The notes beneath the pieces are model-generated. The model was not told where the DNA came from, searched no databases, and saw only the letters and a program-made list of their open reading frames with translations. Source: Paenibacillus sp. NFR01 (GTDB taxonomy: Bacteria > Bacillota > Bacilli > Paenibacillales > Paenibacillaceae). From it: a DNA stretch of 64,000 nt. This document shows, one piece after another, positions 1-13,440 of the stretch. Position 1 is the first letter of the stretch. The number at the start of each line of letters is the position of its first letter. The stretch spans positions 1 to 64,000 of the forward strand of contig NZ_FOIK01000001.1 of NCBI RefSeq assembly GCF_900111565.1, in the 5' to 3' direction. Both the position numbers and the translations under genes were made by a program.

Positions 1-153
1 CGAGCGAATGAATTCATTCGTAAAAGTTATGAATTATTGAAAATAAAACTTGCTGAAACATACAGGTATGATATTGATAATTACAGTCTGATGAAGACTG
101 AATTTGTAACCGATGTATTAAACAAAACCATATACAGGGCAAAGGGCAAGTAA
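1..153 (+). CDS. C-terminal part of a cassette-encoded hypothetical protein
   Basis: Frame 1 is open from the window edge to a TAA at 151-153 and encodes about 50 residues, starting RANEFIRKSYELL and ending YRAKGK. The start lies outside the window. The fragment is charged and probably helical; I do not recognise a family. It sits 40 bp before the first attC-like repeat, as expected for the gene of the cassette that this repeat closes. Confidence 0.6.
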   Translation, partial: RANEFIRKSYELLKIKLAETYRYDIDNYSLMKTEFVTDVLNKTIYRAKGK

Positions 154-193
154 TCTAATTATTAGTGGGAGATTTCAGTGAAGAGGCAACAGC

Positions 194-355
194 GTCTAAC
201 AACGTATTCACGCTGCGGGCCATGCGGCCCTTGGTCTGCAAGAGGAATTTCGGAGATGCGGAGTCAGCAGACAACCCTGCACTGGCTAAGTCCGTCGGAC
301 CCGGGGCGAACGCCCCTTAAGCCAGTGAGGGTTCGTGAATACCAGAACGTTATAG
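194..355 (+). repeat. attC-like site 1
   Basis: R'' GTCTAAC (194-200) and R' GTTATAG (349-355). L boxes TATTCACG and CGTGAATA pair. Arm 1 is GGGCC/GGCCC, arm 2 GTCTGC/GCAGAC, arm 3 CACTGGCTAAG/CTTAAGCCAGTG with a GGGGCG/CGCCCC tip. R'' and R' of this site do not match each other; R' matches R'' of site 2. Confidence 0.85.
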
Positions 356-431
356 GAAATCAGCGCATCCACATTCAAAGAATCGTAGTAACCCAAAAAC
401 ACTCTAAATTCATGAAAGAATAGGTGATTAT

Positions 432-781
432 ATGTCTGATTTTCTATTATATGATTATTTAATGATTTATTCCGATGAGAAATATACAGAGAAAATAAAA
501 ACAATAGAAATTGAGGAATTCTTCATTGAAACATTAGAGTTTAATAAAATAAGCAGTTTGAAATTTTCCAAAGTGATTAATGATGAATTGATAATAGCTA
601 CTGGTCTTTTTGCTGATTCAGAAGGTAGTTATGCTTTTATACTCTAGATGGAATAGAAGAGATTAACTTAATAGAAATAGATATACCCCAAGAGATTAAT
701 ATAGAAATAGAAGAGTCAATCTTAGAAATTGCACATGCAATAGCAAGTAAATTCTCATGGATAATAGATGAACGAAGATAA
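432..781 (+). pseudogene. Frameshifted cassette gene, hypothetical acidic protein
   Basis: An ATG at 432 opens a 71-residue frame (MSDFLLYDYL...) that stops at 645-647. A second frame continues directly from the T-run near 634-640 and reads LDGIEEINLIEIDIPQEIN to a TAA at 779-781. Joined, they give an acidic protein of about 116 residues, so a one-base change in the TTTT run at about 636 is the simplest explanation. This may be a real frameshift or a sequencing error. The family is not recognised; the size and acidity recall immunity proteins, but no motif shows that. The cassette is closed by site 2, whose R'' matches this cassette's start perfectly. Confidence 0.65.
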
Positions 782-823
782 TAAATGATTTTAGTGGGCT
801 AAATCGAGGAAGGCGCTGACATC

Positions 824-944
824 CTATAACAATGTTTTCACGCATCGGCAGACAAGCTGCCTCGGTCTCGGAAGAGAGGTCGGAGATGTTGATGCCGGGA
901 CACATCCGACTACGTCGGACGTCGTGAACACGGGAACGTTAGCC
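824..944 (+). repeat. attC-like site 2 (short class)
   Basis: R'' CTATAAC (824-830), exact reverse complement of the GTTATAG that starts this cassette; R' GTTAGCC (938-944). Arm 1 is GGCAG/CTGCC, arm 2 GTCTCGG/CCGGGAC (one G-T wobble), and arm 3 is only a mini hairpin TCCGAC-tac-GTCGGA. 121 bp. Confidence 0.85.
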
Positions 945-967
945 GAAATTAACTAGGAGGGAAAGCT

Positions 968-1762
968 ATGAAGTTTCTAAAACGCACAAAGGAAATTGCC
1001 ATTCTTATTGTAACCATTTCAATTGCAATTAAGTTTATTTTGCTGGATTTTAACAGTTTGTCCCTTCCGGATAACTTAACAAATCTGCTAGCCATGACTC
1101 TTGCTCTATTTTCTATAGGATTATCAGCACTTTTTTATTTTAAAGCGAATGACACTAGCAACAGTTTTTATAACAATACATACCAATTTACTAAAGATAT
1201 TTCAGAAAAGATTGGTAGAATTGAAGAACGGTTTGGCAAAGATTTAAGTAATATTGAAAAAAATTACTCACGAATGCTTGAGAGAATTGATAAAATACCA
1301 TTCTCTGAATCTATTGAAGAAGAAATATTGGATAAAACACTCAATCAAAATATATTATCACAAGAAAAGGAAGATATAATTAATCAATTAATAGAGAAGG
1401 CTAATATAAGCGAAGACGAAAAATCCAAAATCGTAGATCAACTTAAAGCTAAGGAAATTGAATTAACAGAGGTAAAGACTAGATTATTTGAATTGCAAAG
1501 TCAACTAGATGCTTTTCGTAATCGGTTTGAACTTCCGCCTCATACGAGAAATATTATTCAATATATTATAAAGGGGATTATTAATAGAGGTGAGATGCCC
1601 GAAACATATAGTGATTTTTTAAAACTTGTTGAGAGAAACATTTTACTAATGGATGAAAAGGATCTTAATATTCTACTGGCTGAAGGTTTATTATCTCCAG
1701 AATATAATTTATCAAGAATTGGAAGAAAGTTAATCATTCAGACTCTCAAAGAAGCCAGTTAA
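968..1762 (+). CDS. Cassette gene: two-TM coiled-coil membrane protein
   Basis: 264 residues. Start ATG 968 follows a clear AGGAGGGAAAGCT Shine-Dalgarno. Two hydrophobic segments (about residues 9-29 and 39-60) are followed by a long charged, heptad-like coiled coil (about 75-185) and a C-terminal helical region of about 75 residues (from ELPPHTRNI). This suggests an inner-membrane anchor with a cytoplasmic coiled coil and a small end domain. It is the largest gene of the array and fills its cassette: the stop lies 4 bp before the R'' of site 3. I do not recognise the family. The architecture would suit a membrane-tethered sensor or defence component, but that is inference only. Confidence 0.8.
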   Translation: MKFLKRTKEIAILIVTISIAIKFILLDFNSLSLPDNLTNLLAMTLALFSIGLSALFYFKANDTSNSFYNNTYQFTKDISEKIGRIEERFGKDLSNIEKNYSRMLERIDKIPFSESIEEEILDKTLNQNILSQEKEDIINQLIEKANISEDEKSKIVDQLKAKEIELTEVKTRLFELQSQLDAFRNRFELPPHTRNIIQYIIKGIINRGEMPETYSDFLKLVERNILLMDEKDLNILLAEGLLSPEYNLSRIGRKLIIQTLKEAS

Positions 1763-1766
1763 CTTC

Positions 1767-1928
1767 GGCTAACAATATATTCACGCTGCGGGCCATTCGG
1801 CCCTTGGATCGCCAGAAGGTAAACAGCCAGGAAGCGATTCAGGCGATCAACTCCTGCGAGGCTAAGTCTTCGACCCGGCGCTAAAGCGCCTTAAGCCTCT
1901 CGGGTTCGTGAATACAACAACGTTATGT
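1767..1928 (+). repeat. attC-like site 3
   Basis: R'' GGCTAAC (1767-1773) is the exact complement of this cassette's start GTTAGCC, and the match extends to 10 bp. R' GTTATGT (1922-1928). Arm 1 GGGCC/GGCCC; arm 2 GATCGCC/GGCGATC, different from site 1 but still paired; arm 3 CGAGGCTAAG/CTTAAGCCTCTCG. Confidence 0.85.
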
Positions 1929-1964
1929 GAAATGACCGAAGATCGAAGTGAAAGAGGGATGTTC

Positions 1965-2423
1965 ATGTTACAACTACATCCATTACCAAAAGGAACTACT
2001 GGATTCACTAGTTCTGCTAATTCGTTAACTATTCTAGATGTTAAGCCGTTCATTGGTTTAGTTTATTCGATTTTAAGAGGGACAATGGAATGGGAAGACA
2101 TTGATCTCAAAGGAAAGAATTACTTTTATTTTTCAATTATGTCAGATGATCAAGAATATCATGTATTATTAAATGCCTATTTTCCATACGTAGGCATATC
2201 AAGAAGTTTCAACAATAACAAATTCAGTTTTATGAGTTCAGAAGAAATCAATAATCAGTTTATAATTCTAACAGAATGTAATTATGTACTTCTTGGAAAG
2301 GAAGAACTTGATAAAGAGCTTACAGATACAGATTTTTTAGAATTAGACAATGCTGAATTAGAGCAATTGAATTATTGGAAACCGAGAATTGTTAGTGAAA
2401 TTATTTTTAATAATTGGGATTGA
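1965..2423 (+). CDS. Cassette gene: hypothetical protein
   Basis: About 152 residues (MLQLHPLPKGTTGF...NNWD). The open frame reaches back into attC site 3, but ATG 1965 has AAAGAGGG six bases upstream and is preferred over the GTG at 1908 or the ATGs at 1932 and 1959. Acidic in its second half (EELDKELTDTDFLELDNAELEQ), no signal peptide, no TM segment. Family not recognised. It is the only gene in its cassette. Confidence 0.7.
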   Translation: MLQLHPLPKGTTGFTSSANSLTILDVKPFIGLVYSILRGTMEWEDIDLKGKNYFYFSIMSDDQEYHVLLNAYFPYVGISRSFNNNKFSFMSSEEINNQFIILTECNYVLLGKEELDKELTDTDFLELDNAELEQLNYWKPRIVSEIIFNNWD

Positions 2424-2446
2424 TTATTCGAGAAGTCGGTCACATC

Positions 2447-2612
2447 ACATAACATTATATCCACGCTTCGGGCCTGACGGCCCTCGGTCCGCGAGAAGCG
2501 ATCGGCAGGGAAGTAGATTCAGCGGACACATCTGCACCGACTAACCGCATCGCGGCCGGCTGCTGGCGCAGCCTTAAGTCGGTGAGACGTCGTGGATACA
2601 GGAACGTTATCT
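2447..2612 (+). repeat. attC-like site 4
   Basis: R'' ACATAAC (2447-2453) matches this cassette's start GTTATGT; R' GTTATCT (2606-2612). The L boxes here are TATCCACG and CGTGGATA, a paired double change from TATTCACG/CGTGAATA. Arm 2 GTCCGC/GCGGAC, arm 3 CACCGACTAA/TTAAGTCGGTG. Confidence 0.85.
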
Positions 2613-2642
2613 GAAAGACTAGCATAAAAGGAGAAAAAACAA

Positions 2643-3110
2643 ATGCCTTTAATACATGAATTCCTGGTTGTTTCTAAAGATGATGACTTACTTTTAAATA
2701 AAATTATTAGAGATGATAATGGCAGAATTGATAAGAAGAAATCTGGGTTAGATTATTTGGTCGAAGTGGACGATGATCTAATTCAATATTTTTCTGATAC
2801 TCTTAAGTGGATTCCAAATGGATTGAAAGGTGCACATGGATTAAATTACTACGGACTAACAGAAATCTATTCATTCGGCGCAAGCAAATTGAAGAGTGTA
2901 ATTCAAGGTTGGTACTATTTATTTGATAATGCGCCAAGTATACTGCATCTAACCGGAAACTATTCTTGGATCAACGGAGAGAAAACAGGAAAATATGAAA
3001 TATTACATTTTACAAAAGAAGAGATAATTTTTATGCTTCTTGAGCTAATAAAGATTTGTGAAATAGTAGAAAATAGTGACGACAAAATATTATTACATAT
3101 GGGAATATAG
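2643..3110 (+). CDS. Cassette gene: hypothetical protein
   Basis: 155 residues, ATG 2643 preceded by AAAGGAGAAAAAACAA. Starts MPLIHEFLVVSKDDDLLLNK and ends KILLHMGI. Mixed alpha/beta with an aromatic centre (GWYYLFDNAPSILHL, NYSWINGEKTGKYE), soluble, no signal peptide. Family not recognised. Single-gene cassette between sites 4 and 5, whose R boxes match exactly. Confidence 0.8.
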   Translation: MPLIHEFLVVSKDDDLLLNKIIRDDNGRIDKKKSGLDYLVEVDDDLIQYFSDTLKWIPNGLKGAHGLNYYGLTEIYSFGASKLKSVIQGWYYLFDNAPSILHLTGNYSWINGEKTGKYEILHFTKEEIIFMLLELIKICEIVENSDDKILLHMGI

Positions 3111-3163
3111 AAAACAAAAACTGCAGAATAATAATCAAGCTGATTCAGGAGGGCTAGTCCATC

Positions 3164-3332
3164 AGATAACATCGCATTCAACGCGGCGGGACGGGACAAG
3201 CCCGACCCTGGGTCCGGAAGATGCTTTTCGGGCGGCTAATTCACCGGACACATTCAACCGGCTAAGTGGCAGAGCCACCCGGACCTTCGCTCCTTAAGCC
3301 GCTTGAACGTCGTGAATGCGGGAACGTTATCC
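3164..3332 (+). repeat. attC-like site 5
   Basis: R'' AGATAAC (3164-3170) matches the cassette start GTTATCT; R' GTTATCC (3326-3332). The L'' box is CATTCAACG against L' CGTGAATG: the C/G end pair co-varies and one extra A is present. Arm 2 GTCCGG/CCGGAC, arm 3 CGGCTAAG/CTTAAGCCG with a GTGGC/GCCAC tip. Confidence 0.85.
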
Positions 3333-3369
3333 GAAATTACCGGAATAAAGAATAACAGGAGGAGATCAA

Positions 3370-3870
3370 GTGAAAAAAGCTTCTAAAGAAGAAATACAAA
3401 ATCTCCTCGAGTTATTCAAAAGATTAGACATAGAAGATATTGAGAATCCTAACTTAAATTTTAAACATATTGGGCTATTAGATGTTTATCCTAAGTGCTT
3501 AACGGAAGAGGAAGCAGTGTTATTATTAGGACCTGAACATAATAGAAGTTATGAACACAAGTATACTAAGTATTTTCAACGATTTGAACAATCAATACCT
3601 GGATCAATTTATATAACTAAGCGTCCAATCTTTTGTAGACGGAACAAAGTTAAAGAAAGCGTTTATAAAATAGAAAATAGCCATGAACTAATGGGCATAA
3701 TAATCCAAATTACTAGGGAGGAGTGTTTATATAATTTATTTGTTCCTGAAGCGGAGACAGTAGTCATAGGAAATTTTGATCTTTCGTGGCCGATATATAG
3801 TAATTCAGAATACTTTAAAATATTTAATGAAATAGCAGGAGAAGTGAATTTATATATAAGATCTAATTAG
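3370..3870 (+). CDS. Cassette gene: hypothetical protein
   Basis: 166 residues starting at GTG 3370, with AGGAGGAG at -9. Starts MKKASKEEIQNLLELFKRLD and ends EVNLYIRSN. Soluble, mixed charge, with a basic stretch ITKRPIFCRRNKVKE in the middle. No family recognised. Its cassette is one of two whose ends differ by one base (GTTATCC against the complement of CGATAAC). Confidence 0.75.
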   Translation: MKKASKEEIQNLLELFKRLDIEDIENPNLNFKHIGLLDVYPKCLTEEEAVLLLGPEHNRSYEHKYTKYFQRFEQSIPGSIYITKRPIFCRRNKVKESVYKIENSHELMGIIIQITREECLYNLFVPEAETVVIGNFDLSWPIYSNSEYFKIFNEIAGEVNLYIRSN

Positions 3871-3898
3871 AAGGTTATTCGAAGAAGCTGGTAACATC

Positions 3899-4060
3899 CG
3901 ATAACACTGTATTCACGCCGCGGACCTGATGGCCCTTTGTCTGCAGGAGGCTTTTCGAAGAAGTTAAATCAGCAGACAACCCTACACTGGCTAAGTCCGT
4001 CGGACCCGGGGCTTACGCCCCTTAAGCCAGTGAGGGTTCGTGAATACAAGAACGTTATCT
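3899..4060 (+). repeat. attC-like site 6
   Basis: R'' CGATAAC (3899-3905), one mismatch to the cassette start GTTATCC; R' GTTATCT (4054-4060). Arm 1 GGACC/GGCCC has one mismatch, arm 2 GTCTGC/GCAGAC, arm 3 CACTGGCTAAG/CTTAAGCCAGTG, very close to site 1. Confidence 0.85.
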
Positions 4061-4310
4061 GTAACTCCTGAGGGATAGGAAAGAGTAAGTTTGAATGAAA
4101 GAAACCGCTAGAGTTGGATGAAGAATCGAAGAAGAAGAAGTTACAGCACTGAAACACAGAGGGAAAGCATGCCGGAGGAAGAATCAAAGATGAAGAGACA
4201 GTGGCAATAGAAAGATAGAGGAAGGGCATGCCGGGATGAAGATTCAAGGTAGCAGACGCCTCGGCATTTGAAAGAGTTTAGGCAGAGAATTCGAGGAAGT
4301 CAGGAGCACC
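4061..4310 (+). other. Cassette without a convincing gene
   Basis: About 250 bp between sites 6 and 7, strongly purine-rich on the + strand. No frame with an ATG and ribosome site exceeds about 13 codons; the longest minus-strand frame runs into the attC and looks like a shadow. Two near-copies of GCATGCCGG followed by a GAAGAATCAAAGA-like stretch lie about 60 bp apart (near 4168 and 4228). The cassette ends match exactly (GTTATCT/AGATAAC), so it is a genuine cassette. It could hold a small RNA, a promoter, a very short peptide gene or a dead gene. Confidence 0.55.
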
Positions 4311-4428
4311 AGATAACATAATATTCACGCTGCGAGCATTCGCTCTTGGTCCGGCAGAGGGATATCGAAGAAGTAAGAGCTGCCGGACACCTGGCATTCG
4401 CCAAGTCGTGAATACACAAACGTTAGAT
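4311..4428 (+). repeat. attC-like site 7 (short class)
   Basis: R'' AGATAAC (4311-4317) matches its cassette; R' GTTAGAT (4422-4428). Arm 1 GAGC/GCTC, arm 2 a perfect GTCCGGCAG/CTGCCGGAC, arm 3 reduced to TGGC-attc-GCCA. 118 bp. Confidence 0.85.
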
Positions 4429-4480
4429 GAAACTACTGCAAAGCCTTATATAAACATTGAAAAAATGAGGTGTAACCTAA

Positions 4481-4903
4481 ATGATAAACCAAGAAATCAA
4501 AGGGATATGGTCAGTAGATTGTATGTACAGACCTGGAGCACAAGCAGACGAAAGAGTTGTATTTCTAGAAAATGGATTTGGTTGGATTGAAATATTGAAT
4601 TGGAGCTCTATTTCTGTTGAGACATTTAATTGGACAGTTGAAAATGCAAGATTAAATATTAAAGGTGAACTATGCTCAAGTAATTATGAAGAACCAGAAT
4701 CATCAAATCTTAATGTTGTAAGGATGGAATTTTTCGTAGTAGATGAGTTAACACCATCGGGTAAAACAATGAAAGTAATAAATTTTTCGAGACCAATTTG
4801 TTTAAATAATATGAAATTCGGATTGCTAGAAAAAGATGTGAAAGATGACTACTATATTAAACGCCAGAAACTACTAGAAAATAAAATTGGTCTAAATGAG
4901 TAA
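4481..4903 (+). CDS. Cassette gene: hypothetical protein
   Basis: 140 residues, ATG 4481 after GAGGTGTAACCTAA. MINQEIKGIWSVDCMYRPGA... contains alternating strand-like segments (VVFLENGFGWIEIL, RLNIKGELC, VVRMEFFVVDEL), suggesting a small beta-rich, possibly lipocalin-like fold. This is inference from pattern only. No signal peptide. Family not recognised. Cassette ends GTTAGAT/ATCTAAC match exactly. Confidence 0.75.
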   Translation: MINQEIKGIWSVDCMYRPGAQADERVVFLENGFGWIEILNWSSISVETFNWTVENARLNIKGELCSSNYEEPESSNLNVVRMEFFVVDELTPSGKTMKVINFSRPICLNNMKFGLLEKDVKDDYYIKRQKLLENKIGLNE

Positions 4904-4947
4904 TGACTTGAAGGGGATTTAAGTATTTCGGGGAAGGCAGTAGCACC

Positions 4948-5062
4948 ATCTAACAATATATTCACGCTGCGGGCCATTCGACCCTGGGTCTGCAAGAAGA
5001 TAATTCTGGGATGTGGAATCAGCAGACAACCCTACGGGTTCGTGAATACGGGAACGTTAGAT
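4948..5062 (+). repeat. attC-like site 8 (short class)
   Basis: R'' ATCTAAC (4948-4954), R' GTTAGAT (5056-5062): one of three sites where the two boxes also match each other. Arm 2 GTCTGC/GCAGAC, arm 3 reduced to ACCC-tac-GGGT. 115 bp, the shortest site. Confidence 0.85.
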
Positions 5063-5115
5063 GAAAGATACGCAATAATGACATAAATACAGATAACAAC
5101 ATGGGGGTTGTCTCT

Positions 5116-5484
5116 ATGATTAATGAGGTCAATAAATACCTTGGAAGTTGGATGGATCATTCCCGTCATTTACTAATAATTAACATGATAGATGAAATGA
5201 ATGTAAGTGTAGACTTTTATCCAAGTGTTGGTAGTGAGCCGGTTGTTCGAAAGTTACTTGGAAGAAAAGCTTTATCGAAAAACATGAAGGGGATCTTGCA
5301 AGAACAAGGACTACAAATTGAGTTAGGAGAAGAAGAACTTGGACCAACCCTTCAACTTAAAATAACTCACATAAATATCAAGGAATATTTAGAACCACGT
5401 GTAGTTATGGGAATGTATGATGATTATGAAGACGACTTTGGCGTCCCATGGATATATCCTTTAACTTACTATAAGAGATTATAA
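5116..5484 (+). CDS. Cassette gene: hypothetical protein
   Basis: 122 residues from ATG 5116, which has GGGGGTT seven bases upstream; an in-frame ATG at 5101 has no clear site. MINEVNKYLGSWMDHSRHLLI... has a central LLGRKALSKNMKG stretch and an acidic, proline/tyrosine-rich end (YDDYEDDFGVPWIYPLTYYKRL). Soluble and unrecognised. Cassette ends match exactly. Confidence 0.7.
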   Translation: MINEVNKYLGSWMDHSRHLLIINMIDEMNVSVDFYPSVGSEPVVRKLLGRKALSKNMKGILQEQGLQIELGEEELGPTLQLKITHINIKEYLEPRVVMGMYDDYEDDFGVPWIYPLTYYKRL

Positions 5485-5550
5485 AATGAATAAATTTAAA
5501 TACATATAAGTGATTGATTTTTTAAGCTATTCGAAGAAGGCATATCCATC

Positions 5551-5712
5551 ATCTAACACTGTATTCACACGGCGTGCCTAACGGCCCTTGGTCTGCTAGA
5601 GGCATTTCGTGGAAGAGGGTTCTGCAGACAACCCTGTGAGGCTAAGTGGCGGAGCCACCCGGTCCTGGCGGACCTTAAACCTCTCGGGTTCGTGAATACA
5701 ACAACGTTATCG
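5551..5712 (+). repeat. attC-like site 9
   Basis: R'' ATCTAAC (5551-5557) matches its cassette start; R' GTTATCG (5706-5712). Arm 2 GTCTGC/GCAGAC; arm 3 begins GAGGCTAAG and closes with CCTC, with a GTGGC/GCCAC tip hairpin. Arm 1 is imperfect. Confidence 0.85.
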
Positions 5713-5738
5713 GAAATTCAGTTGAAGGGATAATGCAC

Positions 5739-6377
5739 ATGAAAACTCTATTTCGACCTGTTGGTCTAATTGAAATGAAATTAATATTAGATCTTGAACT
5801 TAATGGTTTTCCTCCAAGGCTGCCAGAGCAGCCTATTTTTTACCCAGTCCTAAATCAAGCTTATGCAGACCAGATTGCATTGGAATGGAATACTAAAGAT
5901 AAAGTCTTTGGGAGCGTTGGATTTGTAACTGAGTTTAATGTGGCTAGTCCTTTTATTGATAAATATGAAGAACAAATTGTAGGATCAAGAAACCATAATG
6001 AGTTATGGATCCCAGCTGAAGATTTAGAGGAGCTTAACAATAATATTGAAGGTCAGATTAAGATAGTTAATGTGTTTTATGGAAGTAACTATAAAGGGCT
6101 TACTCCGGAATTAACAATATTTGAAGATAAGAATCCTAAAGAACAATTTATTATTTGGAAAGAAATTTTGGATTATAATTCAATGGATTTCTATTGTGAA
6201 ATCAAAGACAACTGGAAATATATCTATATGAATTTTGCATTTTGGAAGAAGACTGAATTCATTGAATTTGGAATAACTGATGCAACAAAGTCTGAAGTAC
6301 TTTCAACCATGAAAGAGTACTGGAATGATCACTTTCCACAAACTAAATTATTTGAAGGCAACTCTGAGAAGAACTGA
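5739..6377 (+). CDS. Cassette gene: protein of the 'ADP-ribosylation/crystallin J1' annotated family
   Basis: 212 residues from ATG 5739 (GAAGGGA eight bases upstream; an in-frame ATG at 5733 is too close). The N-terminal half (RPVGLIEMKLI, FPPRLPEQPIFYPVLNQ, ALEWNTKD, GFVTEFNV, HNELWIPAEDLEELN) matches my memory of a Bacillus/Paenibacillus family labelled ADP-ribosylation/crystallin J1; its biochemical function is not established. The C-terminal part (about residues 115-212) looks like an additional small domain. The stop is 5 bp from R'' of site 10, so the cassette is filled. Confidence in the family name is moderate. Confidence 0.65.
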   Translation: MKTLFRPVGLIEMKLILDLELNGFPPRLPEQPIFYPVLNQAYADQIALEWNTKDKVFGSVGFVTEFNVASPFIDKYEEQIVGSRNHNELWIPAEDLEELNNNIEGQIKIVNVFYGSNYKGLTPELTIFEDKNPKEQFIIWKEILDYNSMDFYCEIKDNWKYIYMNFAFWKKTEFIEFGITDATKSEVLSTMKEYWNDHFPQTKLFEGNSEKN

Positions 6378-6382
6378 ACATC

Positions 6383-6569
6383 CGATAACACCATATTCAC
6401 GCTTCGGGCCATTCGGCCCTCGGTCCGGCAGAAGTTAGAAGAGGATTCGGGGATGAATTTTCAGTAGCGGGGAAGCTATTTCAGCCGGACACATCCTTCC
6501 ACCTAACCGCGTCGCGGCCGCCCTTCGGGCTTAAGGTGGAAGGACGTCGTGAATACACGAACGTTATCG
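6383..6569 (+). repeat. attC-like site 10
   Basis: R'' CGATAAC (6383-6389), R' GTTATCG (6563-6569), matching both its cassette and each other. Arm 1 GGGCC/GGCCC, arm 2 GTCCGGC/GCCGGAC, arm 3 TTCCACCTAA/TTAAGGTGGAA. 187 bp; the apical region of arm 2 is enlarged, as in site 13. Confidence 0.85.
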
Positions 6570-6607
6570 GAAATCAGTGTTAGATAATAAAACATGGAGT
6601 TGTAAAT

Positions 6608-7093
6608 ATGAAGTATTCAATCAGAAATATTTTAGGAATTACACTAATGTTTCCAATGTTTATTAGTATGTTCACACTAAATCATTTTATTTCTTGGTTA
6701 ATATTTGGGATTTATATTTTATTGCTAGGCTTAGTTTTTCTCTTTTCAAGCTTTCTTAGTAACTTTGAAAAAATAGAAAATAAAATCAACAAAGTATTTA
6801 TGAGAACACTGGCTTTTATTGTCGGTGTTGGTATGATAATGTTTTTTAGTTTGGTTTGGTCTACAAGTTACTTAGATATTAGTGCGTATTTTTCAGAGAG
6901 TTATGAAACAGTTAGGGGATATCCGAGTCAAATAGGTGATGTATCATCAAAGAGTGTATTTCAGCAAATTGAAATAAATCATATTAAACTTAAGAGCGTT
7001 TATGAAATTCATGAAAAGGACTTTAATAAAGAACTAGAAGCGACTTATTTACCTAGATCAAAGTATGTAATTAAGCTTTGGATATATAAATAA
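6608..7093 (+). CDS. Cassette gene: membrane protein
   Basis: 161 residues, ATG 6608 after TGGAGTTGTAAAT. Three hydrophobic segments (about residues 8-24, 28-48 and 66-86) are followed by an exported or cytoplasmic tail of about 75 residues (SYLDISAYFSESYETVRGYPS...KLWIYK). Family not recognised. Single-gene cassette with exactly matching ends. Confidence 0.75.
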   Translation: MKYSIRNILGITLMFPMFISMFTLNHFISWLIFGIYILLLGLVFLFSSFLSNFEKIENKINKVFMRTLAFIVGVGMIMFFSLVWSTSYLDISAYFSESYETVRGYPSQIGDVSSKSVFQQIEINHIKLKSVYEIHEKDFNKELEATYLPRSKYVIKLWIYK

Positions 7094-7127
7094 GATTTTG
7101 TTGTAGCTCAAAGAAGACACTGACATC

Positions 7128-7290
7128 CGATAACACTGTATTCACGCTGCAGGCCTTTCGGCCTTTGGTTCGCCCGAAGGGATTGGCAGAGTAGTGGAAT
7201 CAGGCGAACAACCCTGCGAACCTAACCGCGGTCGCGGCAGCCCCGTTGGGGCTTAAGGTTCTCAGGTTCGTGAATACAACAACGTTATGT
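7128..7290 (+). repeat. attC-like site 11
   Basis: R'' CGATAAC (7128-7134) matches its cassette; R' GTTATGT (7284-7290). Arm 1 AGGCC/GGCCT (a paired change from GGGCC/GGCCC), arm 2 GTTCGCC/GGCGAAC, arm 3 GAACCTAA/TTAAGGTTC: all three arms differ from site 1 yet stay paired. Confidence 0.88.
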
Positions 7291-7320
7291 GAAATACACA
7301 CAATATTAATGAAAGAAGTG

Positions 7321-7947
7321 ATGAATTTGCCTGAATACTCACATATTCAGACTTATGTAAAATGCAATCAAAATAATTTTAGTGAAGTCATTAGTAACTT
7401 TTCTCAAGCTTTATCTGATATGAATATAGATAACGCATATTTTCTGACTGAATTAGTCTGGGAATTATCGGATAATGGTTTTATGTATGTCGGCGGTGGT
7501 GCAGACTCGAAAGAATACACTATCAATAATCAATTGTTGCATATCCGACCTTATGTTATGGGTTGGACTCCAGACGTAATTGAGGAACTAAGTGAGTCTT
7601 GGTTAGTGATAGATTTACTATTATGGACAGAAGAGATTGAACTTGATTATCAGATGGGTCAACTTAAAGAACCTTATAAACTAATAATATGGAACTTGTT
7701 GGAGGGTCTCTTTAACCGATTTAATGAAACAGGCGTGTATTTTACAAATGAAGTAACTGACGGTAGACCATGGGAGTCATTAATAATGAATAATGAGAAT
7801 GAACTTTGGTCTTTTGATGCTGCTATAATTCCTATATTTCTATTTGAAAAGTATAAAGATATAGATGGGGAGGAATTTTTCTATGAATATGTAGGTGACA
7901 AACTGTATATAGCAAGAAAACTTGTATGGAATATATGTCCTTGGTAA
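7321..7947 (+). CDS. Cassette gene: hypothetical protein
   Basis: 208 residues from ATG 7321, preceded by GAAAGAAG at short spacing; ATG 7309 in frame is an alternative, and the frame is open back into site 11. MNLPEYSHIQTYVKCNQ... with a GGGADSKEY loop and many acidic and aromatic residues (LLLWTEEIELDYQMG, RPWESLIMNNENELWSFD). Soluble. Family not recognised. Cassette ends GTTATGT/ACATAAC match exactly. Confidence 0.7.
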   Translation: MNLPEYSHIQTYVKCNQNNFSEVISNFSQALSDMNIDNAYFLTELVWELSDNGFMYVGGGADSKEYTINNQLLHIRPYVMGWTPDVIEELSESWLVIDLLLWTEEIELDYQMGQLKEPYKLIIWNLLEGLFNRFNETGVYFTNEVTDGRPWESLIMNNENELWSFDAAIIPIFLFEKYKDIDGEEFFYEYVGDKLYIARKLVWNICPW

Positions 7948-7972
7948 GTATCTCAAATTAGGCATGTACTTC

Positions 7973-8128
7973 ACATAACAAAGTATTCACGCATCGGGCC
8001 ATTCGGCCCTTGGTCTGCAGAAGAAATTCGGGGAAGTAGAATCGGCAGACAACCCTGCGAGGCTAAGTCTCCGACCCGGCACTACGCGCCTTAAGCTTCT
8101 CGGGTTCGTGAATACAACAACGTTATGC
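7973..8128 (+). repeat. attC-like site 12
   Basis: R'' ACATAAC (7973-7979) matches its cassette; R' GTTATGC (8122-8128). Arm 1 GGGCC/GGCCC, arm 2 GTCTGC/GCAGAC, arm 3 CGAGGCTAAG/CTTAAGCTTCTCG. Confidence 0.85.
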
Positions 8129-8201
8129 GAAACTGGCTGAAAAACACGAATATATCATAGACCTTAGATAGTACTATGCCTAAGGAATGGAGAATTGAAT
8201 T

Positions 8202-8525
8202 ATGAATGATATAATTGTTGAATTTCTTGAAGGAGAAGTCATATATCAAGATTGGTACGACTCAATTTATAATTTTATAGCGGATCAAAACATTAGAGCT
8301 GGCGAGTATGAAGGGAATATCTTCGTCATAAAAAAAATGGACAGACTCAATTTCATTATCTTTAAGGAATATTCTTTTAGAGATAGTGGATTGAGAGAGA
8401 TTCATAGAGCTACAAATATATTCAGAAAAGATCTATTAAAAGCAGTGAATATTCATGCGTCCGCTCAAGGGTTTACTGTAAGAGGATTTGGCGAAGAGAG
8501 TAATGATATTATAACTCCATGGTAA
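8202..8525 (+). CDS. Cassette gene: small hypothetical protein
   Basis: 107 residues, ATG 8202, GGAG nine bases upstream. MNDIIVEFLEGEVIYQDWYDSI... ends GFGEESNDIITPW. Soluble alpha/beta pattern, no recognised motif. It follows a 73-bp leader after R', longer than in most cassettes here, which could hold its own promoter. Ends GTTATGC/GCCTAAC differ by one base. Confidence 0.7.
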   Translation: MNDIIVEFLEGEVIYQDWYDSIYNFIADQNIRAGEYEGNIFVIKKMDRLNFIIFKEYSFRDSGLREIHRATNIFRKDLLKAVNIHASAQGFTVRGFGEESNDIITPW

Positions 8526-8564
8526 GCAAATAAGACTGTTAGTAGTTCAAGGCGAGCCAGCATC

Positions 8565-8756
8565 GCCTAACACCGTGTTCACGCTTCGGGGGTCGAGCCC
8601 CCCTCGGTCCGTAGGGAGTTAAGAAGAGGATTCGGGGCGGAGTTTCAGTAGCAGGGAAGCAAATTCAGCGGACACACCTGCACCACCCAACCGCGTCGCG
8701 GCCGGACCTAAAGGTCCTTAGGGTGGTGAGGCGTTGTGAATACAACAACGTTAGGC
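8565..8756 (+). repeat. attC-like site 13
   Basis: R'' GCCTAAC (8565-8571), R' GTTAGGC (8750-8756). Arm 1 is GGGGG/CCCCC, a fully paired variant; arm 2 GTCCG/CGGAC; arm 3 CACCACCCAA/TTAGGGTGGTG with GGACC/GGTCC at its tip. 192 bp, the longest site. Confidence 0.85.
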
Positions 8757-8782
8757 GAATTTCTAGGAAATCGGTGAAAAAC

Positions 8783-9265
8783 ATGAGATCAATAAGAGAT
8801 TTTGCTGGTTACTATTACTTGTGCTTAGCAATTGGGTTATGCAACAAGGAGGCAATAATTGAATGGGCAGATTCAATTATTGCTGATGACACTTACCCTT
8901 ATGAATTAATAGAAGTATCTCTTTCTAGGGAAAGAACATTAAATGAAGTTCTAAGTATCCTTAAAGAGATTTATGGGAAATACGACATAGACGCACCCTT
9001 ATCTAAATTACTTGGTTTGTTAGTAATAAAACTTGAAACTGGAAAAATAACTGAAGATGAATTTTTTGGTTATATTTCTAGTCTCTTTTTACAAGGAAGT
9101 GCTTTTACAATAAGCGAAGAAGTACTACACATGCTAGATCGATTAGATGATAGTTATTATTTAGCTTTTCAAGGGATATACGGAAGTGTTGAACAAATTA
9201 GAAATGAAGCAATAATTGACCTAGGGAAATATAAAGATTGTGTGAGTTTATTCGAAGAAGCCTAG
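8783..9265 (+). CDS. Cassette gene: hypothetical protein, helical
   Basis: 160 residues from ATG 8783 (GGTGAAAAAC upstream); the frame is open back through site 13, but no better start exists. MRSIRDFAGYYYLCLAIGL... is largely helical and acidic, with segments such as EAIIEWADSIIADD and LHMLDRLDDSYYLAFQ. The build recalls small immunity or helical-repeat proteins, but I cannot name a family. Cassette ends GTTAGGC/GCCTAAC match exactly. Confidence 0.7.
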   Translation: MRSIRDFAGYYYLCLAIGLCNKEAIIEWADSIIADDTYPYELIEVSLSRERTLNEVLSILKEIYGKYDIDAPLSKLLGLLVIKLETGKITEDEFFGYISSLFLQGSAFTISEEVLHMLDRLDDSYYLAFQGIYGSVEQIRNEAIIDLGKYKDCVSLFEEA

Positions 9266-9271
9266 AACTCC

Positions 9272-9358
9272 GCCTAACACCGTATTCAAGCTGCGGGCCT
9301 TGCGGCTCTTGGTCTGCCAGAGGCATTTCGAGAAGCGGATTCAGCAGACCACCCTGCT
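9272..9358 (+). repeat. attC-like site 14, left half only
   Basis: R'' GCCTAAC (9272-9278), L'' TATTCAAG, arm 1 and arm 2 (GTCTGC/GCAGAC) are present. The site then breaks off after CACCCTGC and unrelated AT-rich DNA follows: R', L' and arm 3 are gone, so this site is probably unable to recombine. First broken site going rightward. Confidence 0.75.
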
Positions 9359-9550
9359 AATTATATTATTACGGTAAAGAATCCATATGATAAAGTTGCT
9401 CTACCGTTTAAGATCACAATAAAGGATGAACACTTGTAGAATATTATTGAAGTGAATAGGATTTATTTTTCTTCATATGAGTATAAAGATATAAATAAAA
9501 AAGTACATTTATTAACTCTAAAGTACCCAGTAGAAGCTGATAAGAATTAA
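9359..9550 (+). pseudogene. Remnant of a cassette gene
   Basis: One frame codes NYIITVKNPYDKVALPFKIT then IKDEHL to a TAG at 9437-9439, and the same frame continues with NIIEVNRIYFSSYEYKDINK to a TAA at 9548-9550. No start codon; the left end abuts the broken attC half. It reads like the C-terminal end of a gene with an in-frame stop. Family unknown. Confidence 0.5.
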
Positions 9551-9583
9551 AGGAGAAATCTGATCGTTATTCAAGTAACTAGC

Positions 9584-9634
9584 TGCATCCGCGGCCTTAA
9601 GTCGGTGGGACGTCGTGGATACAGTAAACGGTAT
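9584..9634 (+). repeat. attC-like right-half remnant
   Basis: CTTAAGTCGGTGGGACGTCG then TGGATACAGTAAACGGTAT reproduces the arm 3 closing strand and L' box of site 4, but the R' GTT has become GGTAT. A decayed site end. Confidence 0.6.
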
Positions 9635-9730
9635 AAAACATAATTACAAGTAAAACCTTTACTTGAAACATATAAAACACCCATAAATATGAATATAAAA
9701 GTGCTAATTCAGTTACATGGAGGGGGAAAT

Positions 9731-10279
9731 ATGCTATACGGACAACGAGTAATAATAAGACCGGTTGTTGAAGAAGATTGGATACAGCGATATGAATGGC
9801 TATCCGATCCTGCAGTTAACCGAACGTTACCATCGGGAAGTGGTATGCCGATAACACCGGGTGTGGTCAAAGAACGTGTAATGAGGTACGCACAAACAGA
9901 TCTATCAGCTGTCTATTTTACTATTTTAAAAGAAGATGGTATCCCGATTGGCAACACCCAATTGTTTAATATCCATCCTTGGTCCAAACATGCTGAATTT
10001 GGCATTTGGATTGGTGACAAAAGGGTATGGGGACAAGGTTATGCTTCAGAAACGACAAGTGTTGTTCTAAAATTTGCATTTGAGCGTTTAAATCTTCATA
10101 AAGTGTATTTGACGGTAGATGCTGATAATCCTGGTGCTATTCGGAGTTATGAAAAGTCAGGCTTCAAGAAGGATGGCATACAAAGAGACGAAGTCTATAA
10201 AAATGGTCAATATGTCGATCGTCTAATGATGAGTATCTTGAAGCATGAATATTTAAGTAAATCTAACTCTTCCATTTAG
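9731..10279 (+). CDS. GNAT N-acetyltransferase, RimJ/RimL type
   Basis: 182 residues from ATG 9731, with GGAGGGGG at -6; a longer frame to 9689 lacks a ribosome site. Transfers acetyl from acetyl-CoA to an amine; the substrate is not predictable. MLYGQRVIIRPVVEEDWIQR is the usual N-terminal strand and helix, GIWIGDKRVWGQGYASE carries the acetyl-CoA-binding W-G-Q-G-Y-A loop, and VDADNPGAIRSYEKSGF is the typical C-terminal N-x-x-x-x-x-Y-x-K-x-G-F motif. It lies between a decayed attC end and site 15, so it is probably an old cassette gene and the best-recognised function in the array. Confidence 0.85.
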   Translation: MLYGQRVIIRPVVEEDWIQRYEWLSDPAVNRTLPSGSGMPITPGVVKERVMRYAQTDLSAVYFTILKEDGIPIGNTQLFNIHPWSKHAEFGIWIGDKRVWGQGYASETTSVVLKFAFERLNLHKVYLTVDADNPGAIRSYEKSGFKKDGIQRDEVYKNGQYVDRLMMSILKHEYLSKSNSSI

Positions 10280-10328
10280 AATGCGTGTAGGTACCATTTT
10301 TGTAGTGATTCAGGATGGCATATAAGTC

Positions 10329-10506
10329 ATATAAGAATGTGTTCACGCATCGGCGGACAAGCCGCCTCGATCGTTAGAAGATTAAGCAAGAAATCAAACT
10401 AAGGCGACACATCCATTCACCCAACCGCATCGCGGCCAGCCGAACACACTGTCTCGCGTCGAGCAGTTTAGGGGAAATGGATGTCGTGAACACGGAAACG
10501 TTATCT
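10329..10506 (+). repeat. attC-like site 15 with mutated R''
   Basis: R'' reads ATATAAG instead of ending in AAC, otherwise the site is complete: L'' GTTCACG, arm 1 GGCGG/CCGCC, an imperfect arm 2, arm 3 with CATCCATT/AATGGATG, L' CGTGAACA and R' GTTATCT (10500-10506). Confidence 0.75.
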
Positions 10507-10532
10507 GATACTACCCGAAAGCTGGTGAAAAC

Positions 10533-11096
10533 ATGAACATAAATGAAACAATTGTTTTTATAGATAATGAATTAACTCAAACACTAAATGACTATCAAAA
10601 TTGGTTTACTTTGAAGTCCGATTTGCTATCCTTCAAGCCTCAGGTTGGATGGAGTATTGAACAAGTATTAGAGCATGTAACATTAACTAACCACTTCTTA
10701 TTGATTCTAATTAGAAAAGGGAAGCGAAAGGCAATTGAATTATCTGCGAAGAAAGATTTGAATTCATTATTAGAATCTTATCAAATCAACCTACAAGAGC
10801 TCGACGCAATAGCTAGACATAAGTCTTTTAATTGGATTAGGCCCGAACATATGGAGCCTAAGGGAGATAAAGAACTAGGACAAATAAGATCATTACTTGA
10901 TGATCAAATTAATGAATGCAAAGGGCTTTTGAAAGAGATGATAAATGGTGAAGGAATACTGTATAAAACAACAATGACGGTAAACAATTTAGGGAAAATT
11001 GATGTTTATCAATATATCTATTTTTTGTGTCAGCATGCAAAACGGCACATTGTACAAGTGCAAAAAGTAATGGAGGAGTTCGGTGGGACGTCGTGA
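10533..11096 (+). CDS. DinB-like protein
   Basis: 187 residues, ATG 10533 after GCTGGTGAAAAC. DinB/YfiT-type four-helix bundle: WSIEQVLEHVTLTNHFLL carries the first conserved histidine in its usual helix and FLCQHAKRHIVQV provides the paired H-x-x-x-H motif near the end, the usual metal ligands. Such proteins are metal-dependent thiol transferases or remain uncharacterised. The last residues (FGGTS) are encoded by the start of an attC right half, so the native gene end and the attC left half were lost in a deletion. The enzyme core is intact. Confidence 0.8.
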   Translation: MNINETIVFIDNELTQTLNDYQNWFTLKSDLLSFKPQVGWSIEQVLEHVTLTNHFLLILIRKGKRKAIELSAKKDLNSLLESYQINLQELDAIARHKSFNWIRPEHMEPKGDKELGQIRSLLDDQINECKGLLKEMINGEGILYKTTMTVNNLGKIDVYQYIYFLCQHAKRHIVQVQKVMEEFGGTS

Positions 11097-11113
11097 CTAC
11101 GGAAACGTTATCT
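11083..11113 (+). repeat. attC-like right-half fused to the DinB gene
   Basis: GGTGGGACGTCG, TGACTACGGAAAC and R' GTTATCT (11107-11113) are present, but no R'', L'' or hairpin arms precede them; the DinB reading frame runs straight in. Deletion junction near 11080. Confidence 0.6.
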
Positions 11114-11161
11114 GAAACCGATAGAGGCAAAGAAAGCTTGCTTTATAGGAGTGTGGAAAAC

Positions 11162-11575
11162 TTGGAGAAAGTTAATTCAGAGCGAGATCTATCGGAAAAT
11201 TGGTATGCTATTAAATTATTATTTGAGTATGTAATATCAGGTGAACCAGATCCAATCAAGATCGATGGAGGATATGATGAGGAGAAGACTTACGAGGAAA
11301 GCATCTACCTGATCCATGCTGACTCTTTTGAATCCGCATACGAAAAAGCTGAAACAGAAGCTCGGAGTAATGAGGTCAGTTATCAAAATCCTTATGGGCA
11401 GCAAGTAGATTTGAAGTTCGTAAGGTCACTTGATAGCTTTCACTTATTTGATGAAGAACCATCGGATTTAACAGAAGTGTATTCCAGGCAACTTACAGCA
11501 CATAAGCATACTAACACTAATGATTTTGTGAAAAGAATGTTTCCTGAAACTCAGGAAGATAAATCAACCGATTGA
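11162..11575 (+). CDS. DUF4288-like protein
   Basis: About 137 residues if TTG 11162 (AGGAG ten bases upstream) is the start; GTG 11153 is also possible and there is no ATG. ENWYAIKLLFEYVISGEP, EESIYLIHADSFESAYEKAE and the end of the domain with QQVDLKFVRSLDSFHLFDE match the layout of DUF4288, a small domain of unknown function. The open frame extends backward through the DinB overlap, which I treat as chance. The cassette start (GTTATCT) does not match the next R'' (GCATAAC), so two cassettes may have been merged by deletion. Confidence 0.65.
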   Translation: MEKVNSERDLSENWYAIKLLFEYVISGEPDPIKIDGGYDEEKTYEESIYLIHADSFESAYEKAETEARSNEVSYQNPYGQQVDLKFVRSLDSFHLFDEEPSDLTEVYSRQLTAHKHTNTNDFVKRMFPETQEDKSTD

Positions 11576-11680
11576 CTTTAATAGTAACCTAAGGATTAAT
11601 GGTCGTGTTCAGGGGGACTTATTTAAGTGCCTAACTTATATATTGATTGTAATTGAGTACTCGAAGAATGCCTGACCTTC

Positions 11681-11830
11681 GCATAACAACGTATTCAAGA
11701 GGTGGACCTAAGGTCCTTGGTCTGCAAGAGGCTATTTCGAGGATGTGGGATGCAGCAGACAACCCTGCGAGGCTAAGTGGCGGAGCCATCCGGTCCTACG
11801 GGCCTTAAGCTTCTCGGTTTCGTGGAATAT
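11681..11830 (+). repeat. attC-like site lacking R'
   Basis: R'' GCATAAC (11681-11687), TATTCAAG, GGACC/GGTCC arm 1, GTCTGC/GCAGAC arm 2, GAGGCTAAG arm 3 and an L' CGTGGAATA. Instead of an R' box the sequence runs into a second site. Confidence 0.65.
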
Positions 11831-11922
11831 ATCCACGCATCGGAACCCGCCGGCTTATCGTTCTGCCCTAAGAGTTTTGCTAAGAAGTAGATTCAGCGGA
11901 CACACTTGCACCAATAAAGCGT
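11828..11922 (+). repeat. Last attC-like fragment, right end of array
   Basis: TATCCACGCATCGG, an arm 1 region, and TTCAGCGGACACACTTGCAC correspond to the left and middle part of a site like site 4, but R'' and everything after arm 3 are missing. Fused head to tail to the preceding site. No further array repeats follow until the doubtful one at 18.7 kb. Confidence 0.55.
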
Positions 11923-11998
11923 AGACTTTGCGCCAGTATAGGTAGAACGGAAATACCTTTACGAATACTGGTGTATTTTGCTATAGAAAAGATTTATA

Positions 11999-12451
11999 AT
12001 GCGAATCGAACGTATTTGGGATACAATTCCATTTAAGGGCTTGTACAAGCAATTAATGGAAAGAGATATTATCAAAACGAAAATAATAAAGTCGATATGT
12101 GGGGGGCTTATTTTGAGACAGTTTCCGACACACATTGTTGCAGTATTTGGTATTGTAGAAAATGAAAAGGAAGAGGTTTTACTCTTAAAGCATCGGGGTC
12201 GTAATGTTTGGATGTTTCCAGGTGGACAAGTCGAAACAGGTGAAAATCTAATAGAAGCCTTATTACGTGAAACAAAGGAAGAGAGTAGTATGGAAATCGA
12301 AGTAGGAAAACTGTTTAGTGTTTCATCTAATACCAGTACATATGAAGGATATAACGGATATGGCATGATTCCAACCAAAGTCATTATGGGATTTACTTGT
12401 ACATATAAAAGCGGGGAGTTCCGCGAATCCGATGAAACATGCTTAATATAA
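11999..12451 (+). CDS. Nudix hydrolase, probably C-terminally truncated
   Basis: 150 residues. Nudix enzymes cleave nucleoside diphosphates linked to another group. The Nudix box is visible at GGQVETGENLIEALLRETKE-ES: the G, E and RE..EE residues are kept, but the usual glycine after EE is serine. The frame ends at SDETCLI, where relatives normally continue for 20-40 residues, so the C-terminus may be lost. No ribosome site is seen at ATG 11999; ATG 12056 is an alternative. It starts within 80 bp of the last array fragment. Function of this copy uncertain. Confidence 0.65.
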   Translation: MRIERIWDTIPFKGLYKQLMERDIIKTKIIKSICGGLILRQFPTHIVAVFGIVENEKEEVLLLKHRGRNVWMFPGGQVETGENLIEALLRETKEESSMEIEVGKLFSVSSNTSTYEGYNGYGMIPTKVIMGFTCTYKSGEFRESDETCLI

Positions 12452-12503
12452 ATGATTCCAAGCAAGCCAAAACTACATTTCAGCGGAAGAGTGAAGATAA
12501 TTA

Positions 12504-12854
12504 ATGGCGAGAAATAAACTTATGCTTACAACTTTGAGTATAGTTCTATCAATATTGTGCCCGATCCTTGTAGTCTTATTGTTCCGTGTAATGTTCTCGA
12601 ATTTTTATGAACAAGAAGCATTTTTGCCTGGACTAGGACACATAATGATATGCATATTAATGGTGATTGTTAACTTGATCATTAATCCGACTACGGTAAA
12701 CAGATATTATAAACAGTATATTGATAATAATTCCGAAAAAATAGTAGGTGTAGTAATAGTGATATTTTCATTAAGTATAGCTGTACAAATTATTTTGTCC
12801 GTTTTAATTGAAAATCCCTTTACAGAACCCCGCTTACCCGAATTTCCAATGTAA
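12504..12854 (+). CDS. Small membrane protein
   Basis: 116 residues, ATG 12504, GCGGAAGAG upstream at long spacing. Three hydrophobic helices (about residues 7-30, 44-62 and 80-102) with a basic-aromatic loop NRYYKQYIDNNSEK. Family not recognised. It lies directly after the truncated Nudix gene and before an acetyltransferase; no shared role is apparent. Confidence 0.65.
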   Translation: MARNKLMLTTLSIVLSILCPILVVLLFRVMFSNFYEQEAFLPGLGHIMICILMVIVNLIINPTTVNRYYKQYIDNNSEKIVGVVIVIFSLSIAVQIILSVLIENPFTEPRLPEFPM

Positions 12855-12993
12855 ATGTTAAAAGAGGAATGATGACGGGCTCTTTTTTGCATAGTGTATA
12901 TCAAAGTTTTAAGGATGTTAAACGCAGTAGTTAAGTTAGAAGTGAGGCTATTGGAAATTATTTTGGATGATATTAAACGAGGAGCTGGTTCGT

Positions 12994-13440
12994 ATGGAAT
13001 TTACGATTATCGAGTATGATCCCTCTTTTGCGTTACAAACGGTTAAAATGTGGAGAGAAAGCAAAGAACGAGCGATTGGACAAAAAGAGATCCATTCTTT
13101 TGAAGATCATTTATTTTTTCTGAATCATATCTTGATGAATGACAATAAAGTATATCTCGCCCTTGAAGCTACGGGTAACCAAGTAATAGGCCTTCTAGCG
13201 TGTAACGAAAATTGGGTTAATCAGCTGTACGTTCATACTCAATATCAAGGAAGAGGAATAGGGAATAGGCTTCTAAGTCTTGCCAAACAGCAATCGAATG
13301 GCAGGCTTTTTTTATATACATTTGAAGTCAACAAGAGAGCTCAGAACTTTTACGAGAGAAACGGCTTCAGGATCATTGGTAGAGGAAATGAAAATGAAGA
13401 GCAGCTTGAAGATATAAAGTATGAATGGGTTAAAATCTAA
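12994..13440 (+). CDS. GNAT N-acetyltransferase
   Basis: 148 residues from ATG 12994 (GAGGAG nine bases upstream; the frame is open to 12967). The acetyl-CoA loop is Q-Y-Q-G-R-G-I-G in LYVHTQYQGRGIGNRLL, and the terminal motif is VNKRAQNFYERNGFRIIGRG. Substrate unknown. It is followed 14 bp later by a VOC protein gene and may be co-transcribed with it. Confidence 0.85.
   Translation: MEFTIIEYDPSFALQTVKMWRESKERAIGQKEIHSFEDHLFFLNHILMNDNKVYLALEATGNQVIGLLACNENWVNQLYVHTQYQGRGIGNRLLSLAKQQSNGRLFLYTFEVNKRAQNFYERNGFRIIGRGNENEEQLEDIKYEWVKI

Follow-up and report, generated by a model that had tools for sequence, protein, structure and literature searches.

An integron-type cassette array in Paenibacillus sp. 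NFR01 and its probable recombinase, which lacks the IntI-specific domain

Comparison with known integrons

Integrons of the IntI type, such as the Vibrio-type superintegron and the class 1 integron with IntI1, are composed of a tyrosine recombinase beside an attI site and dozens of tandem cassettes, mostly with a single open reading frame (ORF) each, whose sites carry R'' and R' boxes cut at G^TT and fold more stably on the bottom strand. Arrays of this same plan were found in Paenibacillales, and one of them opens the stretch of Paenibacillus sp. NFR01 analyzed here, which comprises 64,000 nucleotides of contig NZ_FOIK01000001.1 (hereafter, the window). The Paenibacillales recombinase differs from IntI in that it lacks the IntI-specific domain, possesses an N-terminal HARP-like domain and runs in the cassette direction, while the spacers between the R and L boxes of its sites are asymmetric (approximately 3 and 6 nt). 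We consider it very probable that the window holds part of a chromosomal integron-type array, of which the sites would be cut and joined at G^TT by a recombinase that is devoid of the IntI domain and would grip the folded bottom-strand attC partly via its HARP-like domain. Judged from sequence, the Paenibacillales system likely represents a second kind of integron that captures genes.

That Firmicutes have integrons is not new in itself, since this phylum is named among those with integrons in the accessible part of a previous article (PMC8618304). The portion available of the IntegronFinder 2.0 article gives one complete Firmicutes integron (Limnochorda pilosa) and a few clusters of attC sites lacking integrases (CALINs; PMC9024848). 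A paper on archaeal integrons, as far as its accessible text goes, required the IntI-specific domain, which was said to be necessary for recombination, reported six IntIs versus 539 attC sites, and termed most of its arrays CALINs (PMC9668308). A detector working by that method would likely call the Paenibacillales arrays CALINs as well, and current detectors likely classify HARP-type arrays as CALINs without an integrase, although many Paenibacillales arrays have an associated, non-IntI recombinase. No description of such a recombinase-array system was found in searches of the openly licensed papers of PubMed Central (PMC).

Cassette boundaries, array head and cassette movement

An earlier note on the window had listed 13 R'/R'' pairs read cassette by cassette. 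All of them are present in the sequence as written, and both of its counts were reproduced, which are 11 of 13 exact pairs cassette-wise versus 3 of 13 within sites. Permutation of the R'' boxes among the 13 junctions gave 1.7 exact pairs on average, and 11 or more were reached in 0 of 100,000 permutations. When the junctions on contigs C7 (7/7) and C6 (1/1) of the same genome were added, 19 of 21 were exact (permuted mean 2.1; 0/100,000). This matching was then far above chance across many arrays; for 47 locus-strands of the own genome and its Paenibacillales relatives, 273 of 333 junctions were exact versus 38 of 393 sites matched within themselves, while 2,000 permutations within loci gave a mean of 54 and a maximum of 73 exact junctions. 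These locus-strands represent fewer than 47 genomes, as four came from G418, two each from G433, G252 and Paenibacillus xylanivorans A59, and several from the own genome. Before counting, 74 of 483 nhmmer hits were removed (borders not found, length out of range, or repeats of another hit); L176–L178, which repeat named loci, were left out of the junction and shared-cassette counts, and junctions outside 60–2500 bp were dropped. The pattern is hence real and in the phase of integron cassettes, which indicates that both ends of one cassette derive from one recombination site. The match at the cassette ends spans approximately 9 bp (GTTAnnnGA; 0.89–1.0 per position in 343 junctions), which is longer than the boxes given in the earlier note. 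Regarding the first bases outside the R boxes, the 11th position matches at 0.03 and the 12th at 0.89 in all arrays, showing a conserved mismatch beside the cut.

The consensus of 393 sites is aCaTC-nnn-TAACAccgtATTCAcGC ... TCgTGAAtaCaagAACG^TTAnnnGAAAt with a median length of 160. The bottom strand folds more stably in 313 of these 393 sites, with mean energies of −29.3 and −27.6 kcal/mol for the bottom and top strands, respectively, as a bottom-strand substrate would predict. A covariance model, R1, was constructed from 14 sites and contains 17 pairs, 8 of which have changes on both sides that keep pairing. The search of the region with an attC covariance model, as suggested in the earlier note, yielded 29 R1 matches across the own genome at E ≤ 0.01 (C4, C7, the C6 end, and a small group on C6), which are matches by construction because R1 was built on own-genome sites. 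The small group consists of four sites at C6:369002-370846 (L167:9003-10847), located far from the recombinase, and is a stray array piece. A scan of window positions 1-13000 against Rfam gave nothing at E ≤ 1.

Position 1 of the window is the end of contig C4 in a genome of 5.39 Mb and 15 contigs, so that the leftward search for a recombinase was made in other contigs. The integron-integrase model TIGR02249 led to the left end of contig C6, where the gene for a 379-aa tyrosine recombinase, open throughout and with its catalytic motifs conserved, reads toward the contig end. The approximately 100 bp after the recombinase end in AAGAC^GTTATGG, which was identified in silico as an attI-like site. 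The first cassette encodes a protein matching the immunity family CdiI_3 of contact-dependent inhibition (5.2e-26), and the attC-like site behind it carries the R'' box CCATAAC, the exact partner of the attI-like GTTATGG. Contig C7 (4,949 bp) is array from end to end and contains eight sites. The first 341 bp of one cassette, X, are common to C6 and C7 with 340 identical positions, and 286 bp at the start of C7 recur unchanged at that of the window. Since this repeated cassette stands at the contig ends, X appears to occur twice and to have broken the assembly, from which we infer the order recombinase–attI–cassette 1–X–C7–X–window. The intI-type recombinase and attI site that the earlier note proposed to look for left of position 1 were thus found as a tyrosine recombinase and an attI-like site on a linkable contig end, though the extra domain typical of IntI is absent. 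At locus L009, immunity-type genes (CdiI_3 and SMI1/KNR4) flank the recombinase on both sides (L009:482-877 and 2468-2818).

Cassette movement was seen in the relative G418, a complete genome consisting of one contig, in which an open recombinase frame is followed by 69 sites over approximately 70 kb. Its array contains 27 cassette pairs of at least 99% identity, nine of which are 100% identical over their full 343–763 nt, and the identical cassettes stand at separate places, mostly with unrelated neighbours. The identity drops to background behind G^TT in most pairs; on the left side, the first 20–40 nt, part of the attC end that comes before, are often still alike. Some pairs have a neighbour in common on one or both sides and may be segmental copies. 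Between genomes, 20 cassette pairs were shared at 70–97.5% identity, the best of which reach 97.4–97.5% over 1,136 and 864 nt and are followed by unrelated cassettes; this comparison of cassette order spans different species with one genome each. The mobility of cassettes proposed in the earlier note is hence borne out by sequence comparison, through exact full-length copies at new places in relatives and different neighbours in different genomes. Its further proposal, that a compatible tyrosine recombinase acted here, gained a matching recombinase and an attI-like site, from which the action itself can be presumed. When ORFs of at least 60 aa were taken mechanically from 333 cassettes, 246 had one in the array direction, 49 had one in the opposite direction and 38 had none. 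Among 105 of the 246 cassette proteins that were scanned, at least 11 were GNAT acetyltransferases, and NUDIX, DinB, HIT, Imm33 and candidate defence proteins were found once or twice each.

The recombinase and its distribution

The catalytic core of the recombinase is like that of XerA, XerC and XerD, and its best NCBIfam match is XerA (NF040815) with 218.7 bits, under the cut-off of 220. The extra N-terminal domain and the attached arrays are unlike Xer proteins, and the two Xer-like proteins of the own genome branch elsewhere on very long branches. The distance from the lysine box to the HxLRH motif is 55–61 residues in all 74 relatives, of 80, in which both motifs were found, versus 100 in IntI1 and an IntI of Pseudomonas aeruginosa, which leaves no room for the extra domain in any of the 74. 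When aligned with IntI4 (2A3V), the own recombinase matches in two pieces and has 25 residues where IntI4 has 67. Likewise, TIGR02249 matches it below the cut-off in two pieces, whereas the IntI controls score over the cut-off in one piece. By these sequence measures it is a recombinase without the IntI-specific domain, which is absent wherever this can be checked. In a tree of 62 proteins, a branch (96/85) sets the 53 recombinases of this kind apart, and the 7 IntIs group together (100/100). These 7 IntI rows are of narrow range, the plasmid search for diverse IntI relatives being filled by IntI1, and the IntI-like protein P0228, which has a damaged end, was left out. Only the split between the two kinds was used, because the branches leading to the two Xer rows are very long. 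When the whole recombinase model is compared by structure, its best match is IntI4, despite the non-IntI traits of its sequence.

The N-terminal domain contains a conserved G-x-x-W...W pattern and weakly resembles the structure-specific DNA-binding domains of HARP, XPB and UvsW. The XPB and UvsW domains are attached to repair helicases. The N-terminal domain of the recombinase may have the same kind of fold as the HARP domain of SMARCAL1 and the N-terminal domains of XPB and UvsW, and the evidence for this likeness consists of a second-look aligner, a sequence profile and weak Pfam matches. The HARP model PF07443 matched 20 of 51 members at E ≤ 1, weakly and with a best value of 7.6e-4; it gave no match to the own recombinase at E ≤ 0.01. 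One database protein, P0071, carries the PF07443 label. No Foldseek match at E ≤ 0.001 was obtained for the N-terminal domain by itself. The HARP domain sits on repair helicases according to the accessible part of a previous study (PMC4035279), while here it would sit on a site-specific recombinase.

The earlier note had called the array unexpected, but it is no peculiarity of a single Firmicute. Scoring at most seven sites in each of 394 family genomes revealed at least one at E ≤ 1e-4 in 305. With four candidates scored per genome, the recombinase itself reached E ≤ 1e-60 in 122 of the 394. Sites were present in 121 of the 122 recombinase-bearing genomes versus 184 of the 272 others (Fisher p 1.5e-15). 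For the order, sites were found in 95 of 149 genomes, with at most 19 scored in each. None of the 149 had an IntI that passed the curated cut-off, with up to 13 candidates scored in each; IntI plasmids used as a positive control score 448–504 bits. A phylum-wide draw gave sites in 10 of 199 genomes, two being the own genome and a family member and the other eight weak (best E 2.2e-8).

The named loci are the best 80 of 577 confirmed recombinase stretches and comprise 30 from Paenibacillales and 50 others. Downstream DNA of at least 700 bp is available for 27 of the 30 Paenibacillales loci, 26 of which have sites there, and no same-strand site was found upstream of the recombinase in any of the 30 by the same site list. 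The covariance model added exceptions, which are one upstream site in L093 (7898-8055, 40.5 bits) and two opposite-strand downstream sites in L087. Of 30 loci that have their first site within 1,600 bp, 27 carry the attI-like box, consisting of the seven bases demanded by the first cassette, at 60–309 bp past the stop codon of the recombinase. It is mostly preceded by GAAGTTCGTAAATAAGAC or similar, and another copy of like sequence often lies upstream. A simple pattern of the Gram-positive LexA box had no match from −250 to +120 bp around the start of the open frame in 30 loci.

Beyond Paenibacillales, a model-free pattern gave 0.287 matches per kb downstream of the recombinase in the other 50 loci, compared with 0.459 in Paenibacillales and 0.031 upstream in both. 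Its use as a strand test was rejected, as the pattern is its own reverse complement, and the downstream/upstream contrast alone was used. The shuffled control consisted of one shuffle in blocks of two bases, which falls short of a full dinucleotide shuffle. At least two downstream matches were present in 12 of the 50 loci, and no pattern match occurred in several loci whose downstream stretches are long, for example L116 and L144. Exact junctions numbered 10 of 25 (permuted mean 1.7, maximum 7) and were distributed over seven loci, namely four Clostridia, a Nitrospirota bin, an Altarchaeum bin and an unplaced marine bin. Taxonomy is uncertain for many of the loci, as they come from metagenome bins. 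A Chryseobacterium plasmid also bears the recombinase and similar sites. On this plasmid, two kinds of attC-like sites alternate (L165:6153-10776), lying approximately 25 bp apart in two places with matching boxes between them (GTTGGGA/TCCCAAC). Recombinases of the same group from Clostridia, an archaeal bin and an Atribacteria bin precede sites of different sequence (L113, L122, L149 and L155); the box rule is seen in L113, L122 and L149, and L155 has sites with no exact junction.

Proposed system and its alternatives

The pairing of array and recombinase is drawn from the box matching, the attI-like site with the first-cassette box, the co-directional downstream arrays and the exact cassette copies. 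In the proposed system, the recombinase without the IntI domain would perform the cassette reaction by cutting and joining at G^TT, it would act on the single-stranded bottom strand, and its HARP-like domain would undertake the structure recognition that is done in IntI by the extra domain. The claim of an integron-type array in a Firmicute-like chromosome is supported, and none of the results that the earlier note had named against it (no integrase or mobile cassettes in related genomes, a fixed cassette order, or chance-level box matching) appeared in the comparisons, which covered one genome per species.

An ordinary IntI might instead have built the arrays, either in trans or before it was lost, with the head recombinase as a bystander. 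The sites do follow the general attC plan, and IntIs from elsewhere can move CALIN cassettes, as stated in the accessible text on archaeal integrons (PMC9668308). This canonical origin is nevertheless quite improbable, because none of the 149 genomes of the order showed an IntI over the cut-off among the candidates scored, yet nearly two-thirds have sites, and because the recombinase without the IntI domain stands directly before the arrays with its attI-like box. We give even less credence to self-spreading hairpin repeats, such as miniature inverted-repeat transposable elements or repetitive extragenic palindromes, lying beside small genes without cassette recombination. Although the sites are palindromic, abundant and present at several places per genome, a repeat moving alone should match best within its own copy, whereas here the cassette ends match, whole-cassette copies end at G^TT, and the sites of the named loci lie almost only downstream of the recombinase. 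A less remote alternative, though still an unlikely one, is that the system is old and inactive in the window's genome, leaving a relic array, while activity would persist solely in relatives like G418. The recombinase is broken in many relatives, and the array tail at 9272-11925 is degenerate; it has one interrupted and one weak site, a right half standing by itself, and a last site whose right end is broken. Against this, the recombinase of the window's genome is open throughout, 19 of its 21 boxes still match, and the two 5' copies of cassette X are almost identical.

The system of recombinase and array, which we read as a HARP-type integron, is common in Paenibacillales and probably occurs in other bacteria and archaea. 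We lean toward the broader idea that HARP-domain recombinases without the IntI domain constitute a second great class of integrons, which would extend over Paenibacillales, Clostridia, Nitrospirota, Bacteroidota (also on a plasmid) and archaea, supply the missing integrases of many CALINs, and make folded-DNA cassette recombination independent of the IntI domain. As a prediction, the archaeal CALINs reported in the available portion of the above paper (PMC9668308) might be served by a HARP-type recombinase. If a recombinase of this kind runs the same cassette system, a large share of integrons escapes both the definition and the present surveys, and Firmicutes would gain a whole order where such arrays are common. 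The needs for reading folded single-stranded DNA would also become testable, the IntI domain and the HARP-like domain being, if this is true, two unrelated solutions.

Features of the window

The features of the array are collected in Table 1.

Table 1. Positions of cassette array features in the window, with R1 scores or family matches where available.
Feature	Position	Strand	Evidence or remark
Cassette array, C4 part	1..11925	+	Sites and junctions; array inferred to run on past position 1 into contigs C7 and C6
3' end of repeated cassette X, common to contig C7	1..193	+	286 bp from window position 22 onward identical with the C7 start
attC-like site 1	194..355	+	R1 160.1 bits
Cassette ORF, 71 aa, no family match	432..647	+	
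attC-like site 2	824..944	+	R1 69 bits
Cassette ORF, 264 aa	968..1762	+	
attC-like site 3	1767..1928	+	R1 147 bits
Cassette ORF, 171 aa from upstream GTG within site 3, no family match	1908..2423	+	
attC-like site 4	2447..2612	+	R1 143 bits
Cassette ORF, 155 aa, no family match	2643..3110	+	
attC-like site 5	3164..3332	+	R1 112.7 bits
Cassette ORF, 166 aa, no family match	3370..3870	+	
attC-like site 6	3899..4060	+	Fold z: bottom strand −6.2, top −4.9
attC-like site 7	4311..4428	+	R1 93.3 bits
Cassette ORF, 140 aa, no family match	4481..4903	+	
attC-like site 8	4948..5062	+	R1 107.3 bits
Cassette ORF, 127 aa, no family match	5101..5484	+	
attC-like site 9	5551..5712	+	R1 141.8 bits
Cassette ORF, 214 aa, no family match	5733..6377	+	
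attC-like site 10	6383..6569	+	R1 121.8 bits
Cassette ORF, 161 aa	6608..7093	+	
attC-like site 11	7128..7290	+	R1 131.7 bits
Cassette ORF, 206 aa as scanned, no family match	7327..7947	+	
attC-like site 12	7973..8128	+	R1 155.3 bits
Cassette ORF, 107 aa, no family match	8202..8525	+	
attC-like site 13	8565..8756	+	R1 118.4 bits
Cassette ORF, 180 aa from upstream GTG within site 13, no family match	8723..9265	+	
attC-like site 14, interrupted; right half near 9590-9640	9272..9401	+	R1 60.4 bits
GNAT acetyltransferase ORF	9731..10279	+	Pfam Acetyltransf_3 2.2e-29
Degenerate attC-like site	10329..10506	+	R1 50.5 bits
DinB-superfamily ORF	10533..11096	+	Pfam DinB_2 4.3e-7
DUF4288 ORF	11153..11575	+	Pfam 1.6e-20
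Last attC-like site, right end broken, then fragment of second site	11681..11842	+	R1 82.1 bits

Halved or interrupted sites lie at the far end of the array (9272-9640 and 11093-11925), as if old sites decay. Apart from the array, tandem proteins of 481 and 482 aa, which appear SLH-like by eye, are encoded at 55122-56567 and 56846-58294, and their first halves are near-identical. A longer protein at 58464-60959 comes after this pair, and the arrangement looks like a duplication.

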